This document shows positions 2,781 to 21,670 of a stretch of 49,873 nt of DNA, in pieces. A program made the position numbers and the translations under genes. Position 1 is the stretch's first letter; each line of letters starts with the position of its first letter. Source of the stretch: a virus; the IMG/VR virus record IMGVR_UViG_3300042988_000539, positions 1 through 49,873 of that record; one strand, written 5' to 3'. The notes under the pieces were generated by a model that saw only the letters and a list, made by a program, of their open reading frames with translations, searched no databases and was not told the DNA's origin.

Positions 2781-4075
2781 TAAAATTCCCTTTCTTCCTT
2801 GACATATGGTTTCTTTGAGTGTTCGCTTAACATCGAGGTGAACTCGGGTGTCTTGGAATAGTAGTTTCCCTTGATCTTCTTGATGGCATTGTTGGTGTAG
2901 AGTGTTGCGATGTGCGTCTTAGCTTCATCCGTGGATATGCCCATGGTTTCTTCCAAGTCTCGAAGCTGAAACGCGGACATATCAAGCAGCTTCACGCAGC
3001 CGTTACGTCCTAGGCGCTTCATGAATGCGATGACCTTGGAAGAATCCTCGATCTTCTCGCCGAGCATATGGTTCGCAGACCATGTGTCGAAGCCGAAGTA
3101 CCTGGATGAGTACACCCTGTCCAGGTACTGCGCTATGTAGTGCACGTGCTCCGGCAGGACGGTTAGGTTTACGCCATCAGGCGTGCTGTACAGCCTGCCT
3201 GCAAGGGCGGTTGCCATACGTGCCATCTTAATACGCTGTTCTGCAGCACTAACGAGGGTAAAGTCAGAGCTGAATTTCTTGGAGAGGTTTTCTGATGTGT
3301 CGTAGCACGCGTCCTGTGTCGCGCGTGACAGGTCGATCTCTTTCGGTTCCCGTGTCCAGCACCACAGCACCAGATCACGACATAGTTCTTGTGTGAACAC
3401 ATGCGGTATGCGAACGCCACGTGCAGCGCGTAGACTGCTCATCGGCACGTCATCCTTCGACACGATGATCGCCATGTCGAAGCGTGCCACGTCCTCCGGG
3501 CCGGGGAACAGGGTCTTGATGATCTCGACCCCGCTGGAGAACTGGTTGACGGTGCGTCCTTCGCGCGGGTTGGACAGCCAGATGATGCGTGTCCTGGCTT
3601 CCGTCCGCTGGTTGCGTATCTTCTCTATGGTAGCTTCGCCAGATGACCTGATGCTAGACAGCTGTGCGATGTCCTTCGGGTCAAGGCCAGACGCCTCATC
3701 CAAGATGACCAGACGCCGGTTGTTCTGAGGCAGCTTGCCCCATGTGATGCCCCACTTGTTCTGGACCTGCTGTTCTACACCACCGACCAGACCAGCAACA
3801 GACATGCACTCGCCCTGTGCCATGACCCCGACACCGTAGTGCATCATGAGCGCTTCGGCGCACTGCGTCTTGCCAACGCGTGTATCGCCTGCGATGAGGA
3901 CCTCAGGGTAGCCCTTTCGCAGCTCCTTGCCATCGAACACGAACGATATCGGCGAGTGATACACAAGGTCTACGGCTAGATGCAGGTCGCGCCGGCCGTA
4001 GATCCTGGTGACGTTGCTCTCCAGGTCTGCGTAGATCTTGTCTAGTTGGTTGCTGATACTGTCGACGCTTGACAT
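2780..4075 (-). CDS. MCM-type AAA+ ATPase, probable replicative helicase motor
   Basis: 431 residues. Walker A is GDTRVGKT (63-70), followed by SVAGLVGGV, which resembles the conserved Ser-Ala-Gly-Leu element of MCM proteins. Walker B is LVILDEA (122-128), then an E-x-KIRNQRTEARTRII segment and sensor 1 in LSNPREGR (N169), again in MCM order. ARFD (197-200) matches the MCM arginine finger (SRFD). The C-terminal 90 residues look like a winged-helix domain. The usual MCM N-terminal OB/zinc region is absent: only about 55 residues precede the ATPase core. The upstream primase carries a Cys-containing extension that could supply it. The gene overlaps the primase by 34 bases and precedes the polymerase. 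No DnaB-type helicase is seen, so this is the likely fork helicase. Archaeal/eukaryotic-type MCM is uncommon in phages. Confidence 0.82.
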   Translation of the reverse strand: MSSVDSISNQLDKIYADLESNVTRIYGRRDLHLAVDLVYHSPISFVFDGKELRKGYPEVLIAGDTRVGKTQCAEALMMHYGVGVMAQGECMSVAGLVGGVEQQVQNKWGITWGKLPQNNRRLVILDEASGLDPKDIAQLSSIRSSGEATIEKIRNQRTEARTRIIWLSNPREGRTVNQFSSGVEIIKTLFPGPEDVARFDMAIIVSKDDVPMSSLRAARGVRIPHVFTQELCRDLVLWCWTREPKEIDLSRATQDACYDTSENLSKKFSSDFTLVSAAEQRIKMARMATALAGRLYSTPDGVNLTVLPEHVHYIAQYLDRVYSSRYFGFDTWSANHMLGEKIEDSSKVIAFMKRLGRNGCVKLLDMSAFQLRDLEETMGISTDEAKTHIATLYTNNAIKKIKGNYYSKTPEFTSMLSEHSKKPYVKEEREF

Positions 4076-5670
4076 GGTTGGAACACCTTTAGTTTTTCCT
4101 TCATTTCGTCGGACAACTCGAACTCATCTATAGAGGCTTTGTCTTTTTCTATCTTGTTGCAGATCACCTCCATCTGCTGGGTGTCTGGGTGCGGTAGGAC
4201 CACAGCTTCGACGACGTAGTCCTCGTTGGATATGGCCGGCTCCGAGAACGACCATGCCTTCTGCTGGATGTACGTGTGGCGTGTCTTGTGTCGTTCCAGC
4301 GCAGGGATGAGGACGATCGGGTACATGTACTGATTCTTTAGGATGTCTGCCTTGATCTTTGGGCACTTCTCAGGCAGGTCGAAGATGCGGGCAAGCACGC
4401 GCTTCTGGTCCTGTGCGTTGGTGTCTATGAGCTGTAGGATCTCCTGATAGTCGGGCTTCAGCAGCAGGTGGAACGAGCCCTCGTTGAAGTACATCGGGCA
4501 GTACGAGCACTGGTCGCCCCAGCTCCGCTCGCAGTGCAGCTTGACCTCTTGCGGTACGATATAGGTCAGCTCCTGCAGGGTGTTGATGGCGCGCACATGC
4601 ATACGCACCCGCTTGAAGAACATCTTGTTGGGGATGATGTCCTCAAGGAACGTGTCGTGGATCTCGTCAGGTACCGGGATACGTGACCCAACCTCGACCA
4701 CGTGCGAGTCGACCATTGCAGCCATCTCGCGCATGTGGTTGGCGCTGCCGTGCAGCTTCAGGACATAGTCTGTGAAGTCTCCGTTCGGAGGCATGCCCAG
4801 TTCAGGTAAGCGTATGATCTTGACGGAACGCGCGACACGTGCCAGTACATTCGCGATGTTCTTGGCACCTTCGACACCTGCGGCATCGATGTCGTATACA
4901 ACGCGGACGTCCTTATTGTGGAAGAAGCGGATGTACTCTTTAGGCAGCACGCCGGCACCGCCGGAGAACGTGATCCCTGTCAGCCCTTCCTGGTTCGCAA
5001 GGATGCAGTCCTTCTCGCCCTCGAACAACCACAACTCCTCGGCCTCTGTGTTCGCCAGAGGCCAGAGGTAGTTGGTGTTGTGCCCAGGTACGCCCGAGTA
5101 CTTAGGTGAGCCTTTGGGCATGTAGAACTTGACGTTGTGTACAATGTCTTCGTGTATGGCAGGCAGCGTAAAGCGCGTCCCGTCTGTTCCAATCTTGAAC
5201 TTCTTAATGGTCTCGATCGTCCAACCTGTTGCTGAGTGGAGCTCCTGCAGTTTGACAGCGTCACGAAGCAAGTCTTCGTTCCACTTGTCTATCTGCTGCA
5301 TTGGGATTCCGCAATGCGTGAGCTTACGGCGCTTGTCTACCTTGGTGCCAGTGTCGTCATGCTCTTGGACCCGGGCTATGCCCATGGTCTTTAGCATCTT
5401 GGCAGCATCGTTGATAGATATGCTCTCGAACTTGGCTACGATATCACGCATACCAAATCCACGAGCATACGCATTACCTGCGGTCGTGCATCCGAAGCAG
5501 TGGCCAAGTCCTGATACCAGATTGACAGACATGGACGGATTACTATCAGAGTGGAACGGACAGTTCATCCTGAACTCCGGACCACGTGCCGTCTCTGTTG
5601 TCGCTCCAGCTGGGCAGTACTTCTTTAGCAGCGCTTCGGCGCGATCGCGATCGAAGACAAGTGCTGCCAT
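4042..5670 (-). CDS. CHC2/Toprim DNA primase with C-terminal MCM-N-like extension
   Basis: 542 residues. An N-terminal zinc finger of CHC2 type is formed by C37, H40, C58 and C61. A Toprim domain follows, with FEGEKD (E217) and YDIDAAG (D260, D262). The region from about 345 onward is not usual primase helicase: it has a beta-rich stretch, then C380, C388 and C391 (HCERSWGDQCSYC), which recalls the OB-fold/zinc ribbon N-terminal part of MCM proteins. The next gene encodes an MCM ATPase lacking exactly that part, so the two products may form one primase-helicase complex. The start ATG abuts the stop of the upstream SSB-like gene (TAAATG), whose last codons carry the ribosome-binding site. Primase assignment is firm; the extension is inference. 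Confidence 0.93.
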   Translation of the reverse strand: MAALVFDRDRAEALLKKYCPAGATTETARGPEFRMNCPFHSDSNPSMSVNLVSGLGHCFGCTTAGNAYARGFGMRDIVAKFESISINDAAKMLKTMGIARVQEHDDTGTKVDKRRKLTHCGIPMQQIDKWNEDLLRDAVKLQELHSATGWTIETIKKFKIGTDGTRFTLPAIHEDIVHNVKFYMPKGSPKYSGVPGHNTNYLWPLANTEAEELWLFEGEKDCILANQEGLTGITFSGGAGVLPKEYIRFFHNKDVRVVYDIDAAGVEGAKNIANVLARVARSVKIIRLPELGMPPNGDFTDYVLKLHGSANHMREMAAMVDSHVVEVGSRIPVPDEIHDTFLEDIIPNKMFFKRVRMHVRAINTLQELTYIVPQEVKLHCERSWGDQCSYCPMYFNEGSFHLLLKPDYQEILQLIDTNAQDQKRVLARIFDLPEKCPKIKADILKNQYMYPIVLIPALERHKTRHTYIQQKAWSFSEPAISNEDYVVEAVVLPHPDTQQMEVICNKIEKDKASIDEFELSDEMKEKLKVFQPCQASTVSATN

Positions 5671-6381
5671 TTAGAACTCCCGTTTTTCTCCTGCCTCAGG
5701 AGCTGCTGTTGTGGTATCGCCTTCGTAGTCTGTGTCGATGGTTGCCATACCCTTGACCGATGCGAACATCTCGCTCGCCTTGGACTGCTCTTCGGGTGTG
5801 GTCACCGTGTCACGTGCCACGTCAAACACATAGAACGTACCCTGATTATTGGTGCGCTGCTTGGAAGAGATGCGATACTTGTACTTCCACGCGTAACCAC
5901 TTATGGCGATGAGTGTTGCGAGCGCCTGCCCTGCAGTGTAGCTGGTGTTGCAGAACGATGCGATGAGCGGCATGTCCTGACCTTCGACCAGGCAGACCAC
6001 GTTGATATACGCAGTAGCCTGCGGCTTCTGGTCGCCGTGGAACCGCAGATCCTCAGCCACATCAGGTGTAATGTTCATCGTGCGATATACGATACCACCA
6101 CCCTGGGCGCGAGGCTTCCAACGGATGACGTTCTTGAACGCGAACACGGGTGTGATAAGGAGAGGCTGAACCAGCTCTTCCTTGGTGAGCGAGTTGACCA
6201 GCACGCCTGCCTTGTGCTTGCCTGCTGTGACTGTAGGCGACAGTGCCTGTGTGAGCTCGATGCGTGGGAGCTTCATGTCGCTCTGTCCGATGTTCTCTGC
6301 CAGCCCTAACGCACGCCCTGTGTCGATAGTTGCGGGCGGCTGTGCCTGTGCCACGATGACTTCTTTCTTCTCGTCTGCCAT
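5671..6381 (-). CDS. Candidate single-stranded DNA-binding protein
   Basis: 236 residues; not matched to a family by motif. A charged N-terminus is followed by a beta-rich core with many aromatic residues (FKNVIRWKPR, YAWKYKYRIS) and a flexible tail with an acidic patch (ATIDTDYEGD). It ends in Phe, a feature also seen in T7 gp2.5, although here the final residues are Lys-Arg-Glu-Phe rather than acidic. It lies immediately before primase, MCM ATPase and polymerase with a zero-base junction (TAAATG), so a replication-accessory role such as SSB is the best guess. A strong AGGAGG site precedes the ATG. The function is inferred from context. Confidence 0.55.
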   Translation of the reverse strand: MADEKKEVIVAQAQPPATIDTGRALGLAENIGQSDMKLPRIELTQALSPTVTAGKHKAGVLVNSLTKEELVQPLLITPVFAFKNVIRWKPRAQGGGIVYRTMNITPDVAEDLRFHGDQKPQATAYINVVCLVEGQDMPLIASFCNTSYTAGQALATLIAISGYAWKYKYRISSKQRTNNQGTFYVFDVARDTVTTPEEQSKASEMFASVKGMATIDTDYEGDTTTAAPEAGEKREF

Positions 6382-12425: not shown

Positions 12426-12691
12426 ACGTCTGCCTCCTCCTTCTTTCCGTTATACTCTTCGAGCACACACTTGGCAAGCGCTTCCAAAGTATCCGCTCGC
12501 TTGCATACCACTTGGTCATACCACTTGCTGTCCTTGCCCTGCTCCCTCGGCAGGGACACGAACAGCCCCTTCGTTCCCTTCAGCACGCGAACTCCTCGTA
12601 TGATAAGTGCGTCATCCACACTCACATCTACGAACGCGCGCAAGTTGCCAGCGTCTGGCAGTCTATACATCTTTTCGCAGCGAAAATTCAT
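12410..12691 (-). CDS. spoVG: SpoVG-family nucleic-acid-binding protein
   Basis: 93 residues. The core RAFVDVSVDDALIIRGVRVLKGTKGLFVSLPRE follows the SpoVG pattern (a beta-strand, Asp-Asp, strand, then the G-L-F-V-x-x-P signature), with a C-terminal helix. SpoVG proteins bind DNA or RNA and act as pleiotropic regulators in Firmicutes and some other bacteria; copies also occur in phages. The ATG overlaps the upstream HNH gene stop (ATGA), and AAAGGAACAAA precedes it. Here it probably modulates host or phage gene expression. The gene symbol is by family resemblance. Confidence 0.85.
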   Translation of the reverse strand: MNFRCEKMYRLPDAGNLRAFVDVSVDDALIIRGVRVLKGTKGLFVSLPREQGKDSKWYDQVVCKRADTLEALAKCVLEEYNGKKEEADVWNTQ

Positions 12692-13125
12692 TTTGTTCCT
12701 TTCTTATGCTGCTCTTTATGGTGTTTTCGACACAACCAAACAACATCCAAAGGAGCATCATAGTTTTTATGGTGTTTCTCTGCTTTAGGTGCACCACAAA
12801 TTGAACACGGCTGCTTTTCGGTAATTCTATAACTAGCAATATAACGAGCGTGTTCTTCTTTCTTATGAGCTAAATAGTAAGCTCTTTTATATGCCCTTCC
12901 TTTTGCACTCGTGCGCCACGCATCTTTTCTAGCTTTTCCTAATGCGCTACTATTATGTTTTTTTCGTAATGCCTGCCCTTTTGGACTACTAAAAAACTTC
13001 CTTTGGCATTCTTTAGCCGCCTTAGTCTTTCTGTACTTTTTCAAGTACGCTTGTCCCGCCGCTGTTGCCCTGTATCGCGCCATTCGTATTCTTGCCTTGT
13101 CTCTCAGCTCCTTCATTGTTAACAT
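12688..13125 (-). CDS. HNH-type zinc-finger endonuclease-like protein
   Basis: 145 residues. A very basic N-terminal region is built of repeated Arg/Lys/Tyr-rich helices (GQAYLKKYRKTKAAK, GRAYKRAYYLAHKKEE). A C-terminal treble-clef follows: CSICG...KHHKNYDAPLDVVWLCRKHHKEQH. The same Cys/His spacing occurs in the protein at 27704-28099, so the two are related. Such proteins are free-standing homing-type nucleases or DNA-binding proteins. The gene starts right behind a strong promoter (13151-13179), and AAAGGAGG stands 6 bases before the ATG. Confidence 0.8.
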   Translation of the reverse strand: MLTMKELRDKARIRMARYRATAAGQAYLKKYRKTKAAKECQRKFFSSPKGQALRKKHNSSALGKARKDAWRTSAKGRAYKRAYYLAHKKEEHARYIASYRITEKQPCSICGAPKAEKHHKNYDAPLDVVWLCRKHHKEQHKKGTK

Positions 13126-13223: not shown

Positions 13224-13763
13224 TTAGATCACTGCGAACTCTTGGTTCACGAGTGTTGTCCACTGCTGACCGGGCTCATCCGGCCACACGTTATGCACAA
13301 TAGACGCAAGCTGTGGTGACTTCACCTTGTAGAGCGTGCTCTGTCCATTGTGTATCTCTCTCACCTGTGTGCAATACGCCTCAAGCGCATTGTTCCACGA
13401 CCAGCGTGAGCTTGATGCGAACAGCCTGCCGACGTTGCTCTTCACCCATAGCGTGCCGTCCGGCATGGACTGACCGACGAGCGTGTCTGTAGCATTGATG
13501 CGCTCCTTCGCTGTGTCTGTGTCGTTGCCTGCGATGTGCAGCTCGATGATGGAGTATGTCAGTCCACTCTGTCCCGTGACCCACTTCTCAGACACACGCA
13601 GGTCATAGTCATAATACGGATGAGCATACAGCCTGAAGCTATAGCTCGTGTTCAGCCTGCGCTGTATGAAGTAGCGCACGGCGAGGTTGTAGAGCGCCTT
13701 GCTGCGGACGAACGCTGTTGCGCGTGTGTCCTCCAGCGTGCAGGCGTGATACCTAGTAGCCAT
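13224..13763 (-). CDS. Unknown protein at the end of the ubiquitin-like cassette
   Basis: 179 residues from ATG 13763 (GAGGAG upstream); it overlaps the JAB gene by 11 bases. A helical N-terminus (TRATAFVRSKALYNLAVRYFIQRRL) is followed by a beta-rich, Tyr/Trp/Ser-rich body (SFRLYAHPYYDYDLRVSEKWV, PDGTLWVKSN, SSRWSWNNALEAYC). I do not recognise a family. The PDGTLWV...WSWNNAL...C part vaguely recalls the second half of E2 folds, but the active-site Cys is not where it should be. Given the tight linkage to E1 and JAB genes, it may be a target, adaptor or extra enzyme of that system. Confidence 0.75.
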   Translation of the reverse strand: MATRYHACTLEDTRATAFVRSKALYNLAVRYFIQRRLNTSYSFRLYAHPYYDYDLRVSEKWVTGQSGLTYSIIELHIAGNDTDTAKERINATDTLVGQSMPDGTLWVKSNVGRLFASSSRWSWNNALEAYCTQVREIHNGQSTLYKVKSPQLASIVHNVWPDEPGQQWTTLVNQEFAVI

Positions 13764-14418
13764 AGTGCATCTCCTCTCTGATGGTGCGTCCAACGTAGTC
13801 CTCATCCCATGATGGCAGGGGCTTGCGCTCATCTCTGAACCTGCTGAGCGGTGCGCGTTCCTGCCACGAGGTTCCTGCGTATTCCATCTTCTTGATGTTG
13901 TCGATGCCAACAACGTCAGCATCCACAGCAGGCTCGCCAACGTCCACCTTGAGCTTGCCTATCCCGACACGACCGCAGGGTAGAGTGACCTTGCTCGCAC
14001 CGAGTAGCTCGAGCTTGTTGTTGACCACGACATGGTGGTCAATGAGGGACATAACTGCGTCCTTGATGTCTGTCGTGCTGAAGAACACGCCCATCCCCGA
14101 GTGGCTGTGTATGCCAGCGACCACGTGGTGCTCCTCGATGAACTCTTTCGTTATCGCATCGTCGTTGATGACCGCGCCACGTGACACGCGCTGCTTCGGG
14201 ATGATGTAGCCTGTGACCACGATGCCGGAGGGCAGCACCTCGCCTGTGAGGAGTGCCTGCCACTCATACTCGACCTTGTTGCAGAGGGTTTTGATGACCT
14301 CCCACACAGGGCGGGTGATGATGATGCGTCCGCCGTCCTGCGCTTCAAGGTGTGAGCACTTGTCTGCACAGGCTGTCCCGGTGACCTCCCAACTTTCATG
14401 CGAGCCTGTTTGTTCCAT
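13753..14418 (-). CDS. JAMM/JAB-domain metallo-isopeptidase
   Basis: 221 residues from ATG 14418 (AAGGAGG 6 bases upstream). The JAMM zinc motif is complete: a Glu on the first helix (E52 in VEYEWQALLTGE) and H104-S-H106 followed by seven residues and S114-x-x-D117 (HSHSGMGVFFSTTD). JAMM peptidases remove ubiquitin-like proteins or process their tails. The partial pattern HSHxxMGxFFSxTD resembles the bacterial JAB proteins found beside ThiF in PRTRC-type and Bil-type clusters. It is not a tail-assembly JAB/NlpC protein, since there is no NlpC domain and no tail gene nearby. It overlaps the E1 gene by 23 bases, implying coupled production. Confidence 0.88.
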   Translation of the reverse strand: MEQTGSHESWEVTGTACADKCSHLEAQDGGRIIITRPVWEVIKTLCNKVEYEWQALLTGEVLPSGIVVTGYIIPKQRVSRGAVINDDAITKEFIEEHHVVAGIHSHSGMGVFFSTTDIKDAVMSLIDHHVVVNNKLELLGASKVTLPCGRVGIGKLKVDVGEPAVDADVVGIDNIKKMEYAGTSWQERAPLSRFRDERKPLPSWDEDYVGRTIREEMHYGY

Positions 14419-15091
14419 GCGTGCCTCCTTCGTTGACGAGCCGTTCAATGTCGATGTTCACATCATGTGACACGCCACGCCCTTGAGCCACGATGCCTAT
14501 GGCTGCAGCGAGTGCGCTTGTCACAGCGTTGGCGTGTGTCGTTGTGTAGCCAGGGCGATAGTCATCTGGCAGCCAGACGGACATGTTCCTATACGCGCCG
14601 ATCGTCCACTTGTCATAGCCTGACTTCCTATACAGCCCTGTCCTGCGTGCGCTGTGCATGTAGGAGTAGAGCGCCTGCTGTATAGTGGCATCATCTGTGC
14701 AGTCCCAGACCATCGTGTCTGACGGCAGCGCCTCCATGAACGGGCGCACGAGCAGGTCGGTCAGGTGCTGCGGGTGGCAGGTGACCTTGATGCATGGGCG
14801 GAGCAGGCGGAGCTGCTTCTTCAGTGCGTGCACCTTCAAGTCGCCACGCCAGCGCAGTGGCACGGGCAGCCTGTTGAGGTTGGTGGGCTCGAGCCTGTCG
14901 CCATCCACGAGGACGAGTTCTGTGGCACCGAGCATGGCAAGGAACGTTGCGAGCCACCAGCCCACACCGCCGCAGCCCACGATGAGCTGTGGGTTGTCGT
15001 TGATGGTGAGTGCTCCCATGTCCTGCATCATCGCCTCCTGTCTGCTGTAGTCCACGAGGTCGGTGACGCTGTTGTGTTCATCTGTCATCAT
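14396..15091 (-). CDS. ThiF/E1-like adenylyltransferase
   Basis: 231 residues. The nucleotide-binding motif LIVGCGGVGWW (GxGxxG at 39-44) and the strand LVLVDGDRLEPTNLNR (D63, D65, N71, N73, R74) are diagnostic of the ThiF/MoeB/E1 superfamily. WDCTDDATIQQ (D130-C-T-D133) matches the conserved D-C-x-D element after the second Rossmann half. These enzymes adenylate the C-terminus of a ubiquitin-like protein. The CxxC zinc pairs of MoeB are absent, as in short operon-linked forms. Translation is coupled to the upstream gene (ATGA). Within a cluster with JAB and a possible E2, its role is best read as activation of a protein modifier, not cofactor synthesis. Confidence 0.92.
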   Translation of the reverse strand: MMTDEHNSVTDLVDYSRQEAMMQDMGALTINDNPQLIVGCGGVGWWLATFLAMLGATELVLVDGDRLEPTNLNRLPVPLRWRGDLKVHALKKQLRLLRPCIKVTCHPQHLTDLLVRPFMEALPSDTMVWDCTDDATIQQALYSYMHSARRTGLYRKSGYDKWTIGAYRNMSVWLPDDYRPGYTTTHANAVTSALAAAIGIVAQGRGVSHDVNIDIERLVNEGGTHGTNRLA

Positions 15092-15870
15092 GACACCCTC
15101 CAGTCCGCTGTTGCGCTCACGACGCGCAAGTCTTCGATGCCTGCAGCGTTGTTGAAGTATTGTGTGAACGGCAGACCTCTGTGCTGCCCTGCGCCGAAGC
15201 TATCGCAGTTGATGCGATTGATGTTCTCCTTGAACTCCGGATGCAGCCAGAAGTCCCGTCCTCCAGCCCGTCCTGTGCACAGCTTGTGCCACTGGGCAGA
15301 GCCGTTCTGGAACGCTCGTGACAGGGTGTGGAAGCTTGAGTGTGTCATGTAGACGCTGTCCCCGTGCAGTGTGAACAGGCACGGCTCTGCGAGTGCTGCG
15401 GGCAGACCCCGCAAGCGGAACGTGACACGTGTCATGCTGTCATCGCCACTGAACGTGTCCAGCCCTTCTCCGAGTGACGCGACCTGTTCACGTGTCAGCT
15501 TGGCACGCAGCCCGTGGAGCGAGCAGTCGACCACGGACGGCAGCAGCACGGCGCTCCTCACGGGGCACAGGGTGCTGTTCAGGACGACGAGTGGCTGGCT
15601 GTGGCGCTCTGTTGGCACGGCTACGGAGCCAGCCGAGAGCTCCTGCATGATGCGTGTGTGCTCCTCGTTGCTCATCATGTTCGCTGTGCGGACGAGGTCT
15701 TGCTGCAAGGCTGTCACGGCACGCGCCACACGTCGTTCTTGCGTCGAACGTATGGTCTCGATTGTGTCCGTGAGTGTTGGCAGCGCTGTCTCTGTCAATG
15801 TGTACGTCTTCCCCCCGAGGCGCAAGAAGTGGAAGTCATCCCTCAAGGCGGTGCTTGTGTCTACCTCCAT
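15088..15870 (-). CDS. E2-like candidate (PRTRC protein B-like position)
   Basis: 260 residues. The first 80 residues are helical; the rest is beta-rich. The segment HKLCTGRAGGRDFW (Cys198) followed by F-x-x-N-I-N-x-x-N-C-D-S is reminiscent of the Cys-x-Gly...Trp arrangement of the E2-like PRTRC protein B family, and THSSFHTL lies upstream. I cannot show the E2 fold by eye, so this is an inference from the Cys motif and from the gene order (small protein, this gene, E1, JAB). Cys222 is an alternative active residue. AAAGGAG precedes the ATG; an intercistronic hairpin separates it from the small upstream gene. Confidence 0.55.
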   Translation of the reverse strand: MEVDTSTALRDDFHFLRLGGKTYTLTETALPTLTDTIETIRSTQERRVARAVTALQQDLVRTANMMSNEEHTRIMQELSAGSVAVPTERHSQPLVVLNSTLCPVRSAVLLPSVVDCSLHGLRAKLTREQVASLGEGLDTFSGDDSMTRVTFRLRGLPAALAEPCLFTLHGDSVYMTHSSFHTLSRAFQNGSAQWHKLCTGRAGGRDFWLHPEFKENINRINCDSFGAGQHRGLPFTQYFNNAAGIEDLRVVSATADWRVS

Positions 15871-15891
15871 AGGGCTCCTTTCCCAAGTGGA

Positions 15892-15919
15892 GGGGTGCGG
15901 AGCGTGTGCCCCGCACCCC
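15892..15919. other. Intercistronic hairpin between small modifier candidate and E2-like gene
   Basis: GGGGTGCGG (15892-15900) and CCGCACCCC (15911-15919) form a perfect 9-bp GC-rich stem with a 10-base loop. There is no T-run, so it is not a standard terminator. In the leftward transcript it stands 3' of the small gene and could stabilise its RNA or reduce read-through, giving more of the small protein than of the enzymes. Confidence 0.65.
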
Positions 15920-15930
15920 GTGTTCAGTGG

Positions 15931-16131
15931 TTACGCCTGATTCAGCACGGAGCTGATGGTGACCTTGGACATGTCGACCATGTCCGGCAGGGTCGCAGGG
16001 CTGTCAACCAAAGTGCCGTCATAGTGCACCTTAAAGCTGCCCTTGTACCCCTGCTCGACAGCCTTGGCTTTGATAGCCTCGATGGCTGCAGCGCGTGTGA
16101 TGCTCGGCGTTCCGGTTGTCCATGGACTCAT
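15931..16131 (-). CDS. Small protein, candidate ubiquitin-like modifier
   Basis: 66 residues with AGGAGG 6 bases before the ATG. A helix (RAAAIEAIKAKAVEQGY) precedes two strands (SFKVHYDGTLV and KVTISSVLNQA). Size and position match the small ubiquitin-like protein C of PRTRC-type clusters, which lies beside E2-, E1- and JAB-type genes. Against this, the C-terminus is Asn-Gln-Ala with no Gly-Gly, and the secondary-structure order is not an obvious beta-grasp. If it is the modifier, the C-terminus would have to be conjugated unusually. The gene is real; the role is tentative. Confidence 0.7.
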   Translation of the reverse strand: MSPWTTGTPSITRAAAIEAIKAKAVEQGYKGSFKVHYDGTLVDSPATLPDMVDMSKVTISSVLNQA

Positions 16132-16514
16132 TTCCCACCTCCTGTTTGTGTTGGTTTATGTTCCATATACGTTGGGACGTCTGCTCCGCAGTCAAGACAC
16201 GTGCGTCGTCCTGTGCAAGGCACCTCGCCCTCGTACCTGGTTCGTTTATGACTACACTTACTCTTGGCATCCCACGAGGCTTGTTCCTCGCAGGCTTCTG
16301 CCAGCTGATCCAACTCATCGACCTCATCGATGAGGTCTTGTAGCTCGAGGACGAGGAGCCCTGCGTTCTCTACGAGCTCGGCGCGTTCATACGCAGCCAG
16401 TTCTGCGAGCTTCTTGGTATTGAGCCTGTTGCCCAGCTCACGGAGCTCAAGGAGCTGGCAGTCCCAGAACCAATACGTGCCACTCATTTCGATGACTGGG
16501 TAGACGTTCTCCAT
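16128..16514 (-). CDS. Hypothetical helical protein with C-terminal zinc ribbon
   Basis: 128 residues from ATG 16514, four bases inside the end of the upstream gene's reach. The middle is a long Leu/Glu-rich helix (LAELAAYERAELVENAGLLVLELQDLIDEV), followed by KCSHKR...CTGRRTCLDCGAD, four Cys fit for one zinc. The terminal Gly-Gly-Gly-Lys is produced by the ribosome-binding site of the next gene (ATGA overlap), so it should not be read as a ubiquitin-type tail. Confidence 0.7.
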   Translation of the reverse strand: MENVYPVIEMSGTYWFWDCQLLELRELGNRLNTKKLAELAAYERAELVENAGLLVLELQDLIDEVDELDQLAEACEEQASWDAKSKCSHKRTRYEGEVPCTGRRTCLDCGADVPTYMEHKPTQTGGGK

Positions 16515-16515
16515 G

Positions 16516-17076
16516 TCACACCTCCCAGATGTCCCTGGAGGCGAGCACCTGTTGCATCGCCAGAGGGTTATTCTCAAGGTTGCGTATGTTCCTCGTCTGG
16601 TTGCATATGCAGTCATTCTGTGACCCGTTCCCAACGCACCAGCCGTAGGCGTAGCCTCTCCTGCCTGTGCTGGGTGTTGAGCCGGACTGCGCGTTCTGGA
16701 GCAGGAACACCGTGCCACGCTCCACGCAGACCTCACACAGCACGTTCTTATGCGCAGCAAAGTCCACCACGACACGCATCCCGTCACGCCACTGGTAGTC
16801 GAACGTGCTTGCTTCTGCGGGCTCTGGCACTGCCTCCTCCTCGCCCTCTACGTATGGCAGAAGGTCTTCGTAGCGCTCTATCTCCTCCTCACACTCTGGG
16901 CAGTAGAACTGATACGTGTCCTCGTCCGTGTAGAGCTCATCATCACTCGACTCGAAGTCCGTGTAGCCATCTTCCGAGATGTACGCCACGCCAAACTGCC
17001 TGCCTGCCACACGCACCTTGTAGTCAACGTGGTCGATGACGTCGTTGCAGTGCGGGCACTTCTTCCTTACACTCAT
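16516..17076 (-). CDS. Zinc-ribbon protein heading the ubiquitin-like cassette
   Basis: 186 residues from ATG 17076. The N-terminal CPHC (residues 7-10) pairs with CPEC after an acidic, Asp/Glu/Tyr-rich stretch (DGYTDFESSDDELYTDED), and a further CEVC follows at mid-length. The C-terminal third is Gly/Asn-rich. A treble-clef or rubredoxin-like zinc fold is plausible; whether it works as an E3-like adaptor is untested. Its leader AAGGGGGTGTGAT resembles those of the genes at 17628 and 12226. Confidence 0.7.
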   Translation of the reverse strand: MSVRKKCPHCNDVIDHVDYKVRVAGRQFGVAYISEDGYTDFESSDDELYTDEDTYQFYCPECEEEIERYEDLLPYVEGEEEAVPEPAEASTFDYQWRDGMRVVVDFAAHKNVLCEVCVERGTVFLLQNAQSGSTPSTGRRGYAYGWCVGNGSQNDCICNQTRNIRNLENNPLAMQQVLASRDIWEV

Positions 17077-20080: not shown

Positions 20081-20268
20081 CGCAGCAGTGCAGGGAGGAC
20101 ATGAACGCCGTCTGTAGCAAGATGAGCGACCACTTCAAGGACTGGGCCATCGTAGCCGTAACGCCCTCCGACGAGCTGGTGTGGCACGTGACAAGCAAGG
20201 CGGCCGCCATAGGGCTCTGCCAGTTCATGATGGACAACTGCCGCAAGGAGCTCGCTGATGACGCATGA
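20077..20268 (+). CDS. Small hypothetical protein
   Basis: 63 residues. A helical start (DMNAVCSKMSDHFK), then strands (WAIVAVTPSDELVWHVTS) and a final helix. It overlaps both neighbours (ATGA at the start, 11 bases into the large terminase). No family recognised. Confidence 0.65.
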   Translation: MTQQCREDMNAVCSKMSDHFKDWAIVAVTPSDELVWHVTSKAAAIGLCQFMMDNCRKELADDA

Positions 20269-21670
20269 TGAGAAGGCGTTCGTGGAGAAGTGCCAGGACC
20301 CGGTGTTCTTCTGCAATAAGGTGCTGGGTGTAGACCCGTGGCGCAAGCAGCGGGAGATCCTGTACAGCGTCAGGGACAACCCGAACACGATCGTCGTGTC
20401 CTGCAACGCCGGCGGGAAGAGCTTCGTGTCAGCCTGCTGCCTGCTCTGGTGGCTCTACGGACGCAAGGACTCGCTCGTCCTGACTACAGCCCCTACGTAC
20501 AGACAGGTCATGAGCGTGCTGTGGGGCGAGGTGAGCCGCCTGCACCAGTATGCGAAAGTGCCGCTGGGTGGCGACCTGACCAGCGGGAAGCTGCAGCTGG
20601 GGCCGAAGTGGTACGCGCTGGGGCTCCCGTCATCAGAAGAGGTCAGGTTCCAAGGCTACCACGCAGAGAACATCCTCATCATCTTCGATGAGGCCGCCGG
20701 CATCGAGCCGCACATCTACACAGCCGCGCAAGGCAACCTGACAAGTCAGAACTCTCGCTTCCTGCTGATCGGGAACCCGACATCTCCGTCGGGGATGTTC
20801 TACGAGTATAGCAAGAACCCGAACTGGCACAAGATCGAGATCTCCGCCTTTGACTCGCCAGCCATCACCGAGCCGGACAAGTACCCGTACCTTGTCAATA
20901 TGAAGTGGATCAAGGAACGTGAGGAGGAGTGGAGCGTAGGTAGCCCTATGTACCAGGCGCGCGTGCTGGGGAAATTCCCGGAGGAGGGTGAGGACACGCT
21001 CATACCACTCTCCTGGCTAGACGCTGCCGTGAAACGCTACCAGGACCGCGCCAACAAGGACCTCCTGGTCAGTGACCACCTGTACCTGGGCGTCGACGTG
21101 GCACGGTTCGGGAACGACAAGAGCGTGTGCGTCCCGTACCAGCCCAATAAGGTCCTGCCCCTGAAGAAGCTGATCGGGAAGGACACGATCGCCGTCAACC
21201 ACATGGTCAATCAGGAGGCCATAGCAGCAGGCAACAAGCTGACCCAGATCACCGTCGACGACACCGGCGTTGGAGGAGGCGTCACGGACCACTTGCGCCA
21301 CCAGTCGTACCCGGTCATCGCTGTCAACTTTGCGCAGCAGGCGTGCAACAAGCGGTTCTTCAAGAAGCTGAAGGATGAGATCGCATGGAACGCGCGTGAG
21401 GTGTTCCGGGCAGGGGAGATCGCCATACCGCCTGACGACGAGCTCATCAGCCAGACCGCGTCCATCAAATATAAGGTAGACCAGGCGACCGGGCTGATCG
21501 AGATCGAGCCGAAGGAGACGGCCAAGAAGCGCGGGTTGAAGAGCCCTGACTGCTTCTGGGCGCTGTGCCTGGCCCTGTGGGGCTGCCGGCGCATGCGCGT
21601 TGCTCCGTCGATACATCGGACCATCGGCTCGCAAGAACGCAAGCAGAAGCGCGACAGGGTGTGGTACTAA
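20258..21670 (+). CDS. Terminase large subunit
   Basis: 470 residues. ATPase: a divergent Walker A SCNAGGKS (48-54), TTAPTYRQV, and Walker B IIFDEA (141-146) with coupling motif IGNPTSPSG. Nuclease: LGVDVARFGND, VDDTGVGGG and a C-terminal KSPDCFWALCLAL supply the three acidic sites of the RNase H-like fold. The enzyme cuts concatemers and pumps DNA into the prohead through the portal. The P-loop lacks the usual Arg and has Asn-Ala-Gly-Gly, as in several podovirus-like terminases. Confidence 0.96.
   Translation: MTHDEKAFVEKCQDPVFFCNKVLGVDPWRKQREILYSVRDNPNTIVVSCNAGGKSFVSACCLLWWLYGRKDSLVLTTAPTYRQVMSVLWGEVSRLHQYAKVPLGGDLTSGKLQLGPKWYALGLPSSEEVRFQGYHAENILIIFDEAAGIEPHIYTAAQGNLTSQNSRFLLIGNPTSPSGMFYEYSKNPNWHKIEISAFDSPAITEPDKYPYLVNMKWIKEREEEWSVGSPMYQARVLGKFPEEGEDTLIPLSWLDAAVKRYQDRANKDLLVSDHLYLGVDVARFGNDKSVCVPYQPNKVLPLKKLIGKDTIAVNHMVNQEAIAAGNKLTQITVDDTGVGGGVTDHLRHQSYPVIAVNFAQQACNKRFFKKLKDEIAWNAREVFRAGEIAIPPDDELISQTASIKYKVDQATGLIEIEPKETAKKRGLKSPDCFWALCLALWGCRRMRVAPSIHRTIGSQERKQKRDRVWY

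Follow-up and report, generated by a model that had tools for sequence, protein, structure and literature searches.

Does a phage encode a complete set of proteins for attaching ubiquitin-like modifiers and taking them off again? The question is raised by five consecutive genes in IMG/VR virus record IMGVR_UViG_3300042988_000539, which was analyzed over its whole length of 49,873 bases (the window; all coordinates are window positions). Bacterial ubiquitin-like conjugation has so far been known mainly as host weaponry against phages, or baggage of plasmids and integrative and conjugative elements. An initial annotation had read the genes as a possible small modifier (S), an E2-like candidate, an E1/ThiF-type enzyme, a JAB/JAMM peptidase and a protein without assigned function (X), and all five open reading frames (ORFs) are indeed present at that place on the minus strand (Table 1). 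The cassette is real, conserved and phage-borne. It probably encodes a ubiquitin-like conjugation and deconjugation system.

On sequence grounds, the assignments of the E1 and the JAB are firm. The E1 matched Pfam ThiF (PF00899) at 2e-19, above the cut-off. It consists of one ThiF domain with the elements GxGGxG and D-x-T-D and conserved R/K/Q residues, and its profile matches the structures of UBA5, the SUMO E1 and ThiF. The Cys of its DCTD stretch was considered as the catalytic cysteine and rejected because the residue is Thr in 4/13 relatives; DCTD is the ThiF-type D-x-T-D element. By their cysteines the viral E1s fall into two classes, a PRTRC-like one (paired with E2-D) with one Cys conserved in the C-terminal half (13/13) and the class of the window E1 with none. 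The JAB was called a complete JAMM peptidase, and all five JAMM residues (E62, H114, H116, S124 and D127, numbered from the TTG at 14448) are invariant in 10/10 relatives; the Pfam Prok-JAB score alone (1e-3) is below the cut-off.

Pattern scans of viral contigs with the single window E1, E2, S or JAB returned nothing, and it was a JAB alignment that opened the family. Weak matches of the JAB were obtained in Salmonella phage Arash, in Vibrio phages D69, D181 and D148 and in an Alicyclobacillus plasmid, whose JAB neighborhoods hold a ubiquitin-like protein (UBL), a Prok-E2_D protein, the JAB and a ThiF protein. The resulting JAB alignment led to 48 viral loci, in most of which an E1 adjoins the JAB, and a scan with an E1 alignment added L064 and L065. 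The order S-E2-E1-JAB, followed by another small gene, was found in L014, L015, L064 and L065, a recurrence that chance does not explain; the partial L070 has S and E2. The window E1 matched those of L014 and L015 with phmmer E-values of 8e-54 and 7e-48. TerL of the four contigs is 50-53% and the capsid protein (MCP) 67-70% identical to the window, as is the DNA polymerase at 40-44% in three of them, and thus window and contigs form one clade of tailed phages. The four were picked through the cassette and do not give its frequency across the whole clade. L002, a more distant TerL relative, has no ThiF gene within its 44.8 kb fragment. Cassettes adjoining a sliding clamp were present in T4-like viral contigs (L017, L026, L034, L041, L043, L044, L051, L066). 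A tblastn search of 50,697 phage records with the window E1, E2 and S found no orthologous cassette, and the E1 matches examined there had bacterial flanks or were unrelated ThiF proteins. Of two genome scans with the E2, the first gave no match and the second one viral-looking contig binned as Thermoplasmata. The set had been presented as if exceptional, but cassettes like it are spread over many viral contigs, and related, PRTRC-like ones are carried by no fewer than four phage isolates (Arash; Vibrio D69, D181 and D148).

The E2 call for the 260-aa protein had been made on gene order and a weak motif. Its putative active-site Cys198 is invariant in 13/13 and 14/14 aligned sequences, and G200, H181, N221, S224 and W257 are invariant in 13-14 relatives. 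Overall the protein is diverged (19-25% identity among relatives), and it is under purifying selection (pN/pS 0.37, L064 vs L070). Compared with the E2-like (E2L) proteins of the T4-like contigs, its profile gave an hhalign value of 93% (E 2e-7), a score that 0/200 column shuffles reached. In L024 a T4-like E2L domain (profile match 95.5%) is fused upstream of the E1 in one 594-aa protein that also has a zinc-finger region, in the gene order UBL, E2L-E1 fusion (4063-5847), JAB. An E2 fused to an E1 is the architecture of bacterial E2-E1 enzymes (Iyer 2006, PMC1779556). Together with the conserved gene order, these findings strongly suggest that the 260-aa protein is E2-like; it may adopt an E2/UBC/RWD fold.

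S is the first cassette gene in L014, L015, L064, L065 and L070, with 37-46% identity. Its members share the pattern '..A.A...I...A...G...FKV.y.g.lv..p.dLPe.VdM..v.vSa.LdQA' and vary only in the tail beyond QA, which has 0-18 residues (none in the window; GR, KK, SSFKA or GVDTW... in others). The proteins of L015, L064 and L070 contain QAG. Selection on S is purifying as well (pN/pS 0.20, L064 vs L070). The S profile aligned with the UBL family of the T4-like contigs at 92% (hhalign, E 6e-7; 0/200 column shuffles reached the score), and the lineage profile matched the UBL of L066 at 8e-4. That UBL family is in turn linked to ThiS at most suggestively (E 0.0015, 17%). A search of the window ORFs for another modifier ending in GG or KG turned up nothing convincing among the early genes. 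The modifier call thus gained support from gene order in five related contigs and from the profile link to viral UBLs, which strongly suggest that S is a ubiquitin-like modifier of presumed beta-grasp fold.

From this, we infer a covalent relay that would work early in infection. The E1 would adenylate the C-terminus of S with ATP. The E2-like protein would then take S over on its Cys198, directly from the adenylate or from a bound acyl intermediate and without an E1 thioester; alternatively, S could be handed over as a thiocarboxylate. Direct transfer is proposed because the E1 belongs to the class without a conserved catalytic cysteine. Lysines on proteins of the host or the phage would next receive S from the E2-like protein early in infection, and the JAB would trim tailed S precursors and take S off its targets. 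More tentatively, several phage lineages may use ubiquitin-like marking of their own in infection; in the class of the window this would be a minimal cascade kept up by viruses, with a Cys-less E1, direct transfer from adenylate to E2 and a reduced beta-grasp modifier that conjugates through Ala in place of Gly.

Several observations weigh against a conjugation system. The window S ends in LNQA and has no C-terminal Gly. The terminal Ala is unusual, not prohibitive, since the cGAS of CBASS conjugates through Gly or Ala (PMC10097602). S also seems to lack the beta1-beta2 hairpin, because its alignment to the T4-like UBLs starts only at the helix. The window E1 has no Cys beyond residue 131 and lacks the one that the PRTRC-like viral E1s conserve in their C-terminal half. 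When compared directly, the E2 profile of the window lineage did not match the L024 fusion (0.1%), so that the link to it runs via the T4-like family. Equating E2L with Pfam Prok-E2_D was rejected (no Pfam hit; hhalign 0.5%; 13/200 shuffles reached the score). AlphaFold models of the E2 from the window (5 sequences) and L066 (14 sequences) reached pLDDT values of 42 and 65; they were too poor for a fold assignment and gave no Foldseek match. The L066 model has the E2-compatible order helix, four strands, Cys loop, helix, at a pLDDT of only 65.

The same features would fit a sulfur-carrier or peptide-modifying chemistry, in which the E1 makes a thiocarboxylate or amide of S, the JAB releases S, and the role of the 260-aa protein is that of an accompanying enzyme rather than an E2. 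In ThiF-ThiS, MoeB-MoaD and MccB, adenylation leads to a thiocarboxylate or amide. An E1 without catalytic Cys resembles such adenylation-only enzymes, and MccB and ThiF are among its best PDB profile matches; the missing Gly of S and the unproven E2 fold point the same way. However, no sulfurtransferase or cofactor gene was recognized among the annotated ORFs, and a protein with an invariant Cys always lies between S and E1 and is even fused to the E1 in L024, as in the bacterial E2-E1 enzymes (PMC1779556). We therefore regard this chemistry as unlikely.

Conjugation might also be secondary or absent, with the phage E1, E2 and JAB cleaving or sequestering a host modifier such as those of Bil or CBASS. 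To strip tags from host proteins a JAB by itself could suffice, a role that has been proposed for the deSAMPylases of Borg elements (PMC12660748), and the cassette lies among early, fast-evolving genes. But a cleaver would need nothing beyond the JAB, whereas here a small protein, an E1 and a Cys protein are conserved together and in order, which argues for a cycle of the cassette's own. Moreover, library scans gave no family match of S to BilA or to CD-NTases. Such a decoy or counter-defence role is less likely still. Finally, a captured bacterial cassette in decay is very improbable: the Gly absent from S, the conserved Cys absent from the E1 and the strong divergence of the E2 could be read as losses, but neither the JAMM residues nor the E2 Cys vary, the reading frames and Shine-Dalgarno (SD) sites are intact, pN/pS is 0.2-0.37 in relatives and the cassette has been retained across divergent contigs. 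Ubiquitin-like conjugation and deconjugation therefore remains the preferred reading.

Table 1. Genes of the cassette, in window positions
Gene	Position	Strand	Remarks
S, candidate ubiquitin-like modifier	15931..16131	-	66 aa; ends ...VTISSVLNQA
E2-like candidate (E2L family)	15088..15870	-	260 aa; QWHKLCTGR, putative active-site Cys198 in CTG
E1/ThiF-type adenylating enzyme	14396..15091	-	231 aa; GCGGVG; Pfam PF00899
JAB/JAMM metalloprotease	13753..14418	-	221-231 aa by start; ORF open from TTG 14448
X, protein without annotated function	13224..13763	-	179 aa from best ATG; overlaps JAB end

The genes had been described as overlapping. This holds for E2/E1, E1/JAB and JAB/X; S and E2 are separated by 60 bp. 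An SD-like sequence precedes the start of all five, and for the JAB the ATG (ggaggcacgcATG), which has one, is more likely the start than the upstream TTG. Terminase, portal, capsid, tail, baseplate, DNA polymerase, primase and helicase genes share the contig. Of the lytic-type phage that had been assumed, the phage origin is thus firm; no tyrosine integrase was found in the window. S, the E2 candidate and X had no useful match in Pfam, NCBIfam or PHROGs. A gene in the position of X is present and conserved in L014, L015, L064 and L065. Homology of the window X to these was unsupported (hhalign 1.4%), and X is without a proven relative. Upstream, the ORF 16128-16787 (minus strand), which ends at the start of S, has a C-terminus that is Cys-rich and zinc-ribbon-like; in L014, L064 and L070, too, a Cys-rich ORF of this kind lies ahead of S. 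An HNH-type endonuclease gene (12688-13125, minus strand) lies directly downstream of the cassette. Among annotated relatives of the window terminase (20258-21670, plus strand), the best is that of vir525 (38%), whose assigned host group is Methanosarcinales; the phage itself may infect bacteria or archaea.

In Arash (L012:107-4539) and the Vibrio phages D69/D181/D148 (L013:136-4693) the UBL-E2D-JAB-E1 genes are annotated as hypothetical or structural. The Arash UBL (L012:107-307), an ORF of 66 aa ending in GTKG, is in a different frame from the annotated one, and phage D69 (L013:136-927) encodes three tandem ubiquitin-like domains, each with a GTKG end. Gp246-249 and Gp251 of Arash are listed as detected in purified particles (PMC10585845), and the GenBank record labels its E1 and E2 genes 'structural protein'. 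This is a lead only, because table numbering and coverage fit the GenBank genes poorly. In L034:2309-6789, L043:2404-6768 and L066:3747-7523, UBL-E2L-E1-JAB follow just after the sliding-clamp-like gene; one T4-like contig with a clamp-adjacent cassette was binned as a Thermoplasmata archaeon. At two viral E1+JAB loci (L018:3476-4246, L025:4334-5302) an E2-like motif HPHV..(G)xICxG is joined to several zinc-ribbon-like CxxC pairs, possibly an E2-E3 type fusion.

Dozens of mostly uncultured viruses carry similar sets, and therefore viruses of microbes may themselves tag proteins during infection. If complete cassettes in lytic-type phages of several unrelated lineages, with distinct E2 and modifier families, act as proposed, prokaryotic viruses would also write ubiquitin-like marks. 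Candidate marked proteins become testable, namely the replisome (beside the sliding clamp), host RNA polymerase and the virion, and cultured phages with a related cassette exist in Arash and Vibrio D69. Whether a Cys-less E1 feeds an E2 directly bears on the evolution of E1-E2 relays. Earlier work described bacterial operon types 6a-6e and UBL/JAB domains in the tail genes of lambda and T1, with no E1-E2-JAB-UBL set in phages (Iyer 2006, PMC1779556). Cassettes for ubiquitin-like conjugation go unmentioned in a survey that covered 224 jumbo phages (PMC7824862), and Borg elements have JAMM deSAMPylases (PMC12660748). The literature searched, which covered few subscription journals and no preprints, yielded no description of a complete cassette in a phage; the T4-like cassettes were likewise not described there.

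Similarity to PRTRC plasmid clusters and Bil defence operons had been pointed out. By the tests run on E2, UBL, JAB and E1 the window set is neither. PRTRC (type 6d of Iyer: UBL, E2-D, JAB and E1; in viruses Arash and D69) fills the same four roles, and its JAB shares IPKQ..VS..AV and HSH..M..FFS.TD with that of the window. The best NCBIfam match of the window JAB is PRTRC_A (TIGR03735), at E 0.019 and 14.5 bits against a cut-off of 101.8. In contrast, the PRTRC order is E2-JAB-E1, its UBL ends in GTKG while S has no TIGR03738 hit, its E2 is Prok-E2_D while that of the window is not by sequence, its viral E1s keep the conserved Cys, and its ParB-type genes are missing beside the window cassette. 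In Bil (BilABCD), too, a single operon encodes UBL, E2, JAB and E1 (PMC11354881). However, it is an antiphage operon, and the two adenylation domains and Cys domain of BilD, the two UBL domains of BilA and the CEHH of BilB, as described (PMC11354881), are all absent from the phage set. CBASS type II (Cap2/Cap3) has E1/E2/JAB chemistry in common, and either Gly or Ala can be the last residue of its modifier (PMC10097602), but Cap2 is an E2-E1 fusion where the window has separate proteins. A PADLOC scan of the cassette proteins gave no system except generic E1-E2 homology, and no CD-NTase or effector was recognized. The T4-like cassettes belong to a different phage lineage, without a recognized X gene, and their UBLs have the full beta1-beta2 region and end in RPYEVAG plus 0-5 residues, the pattern expected for JAB-processed UBLs, neither of which is seen in S. 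They nevertheless share the UBL-E2L-E1-JAB order, and their E1, JAB, E2L and UBL are homologous to those of the window.

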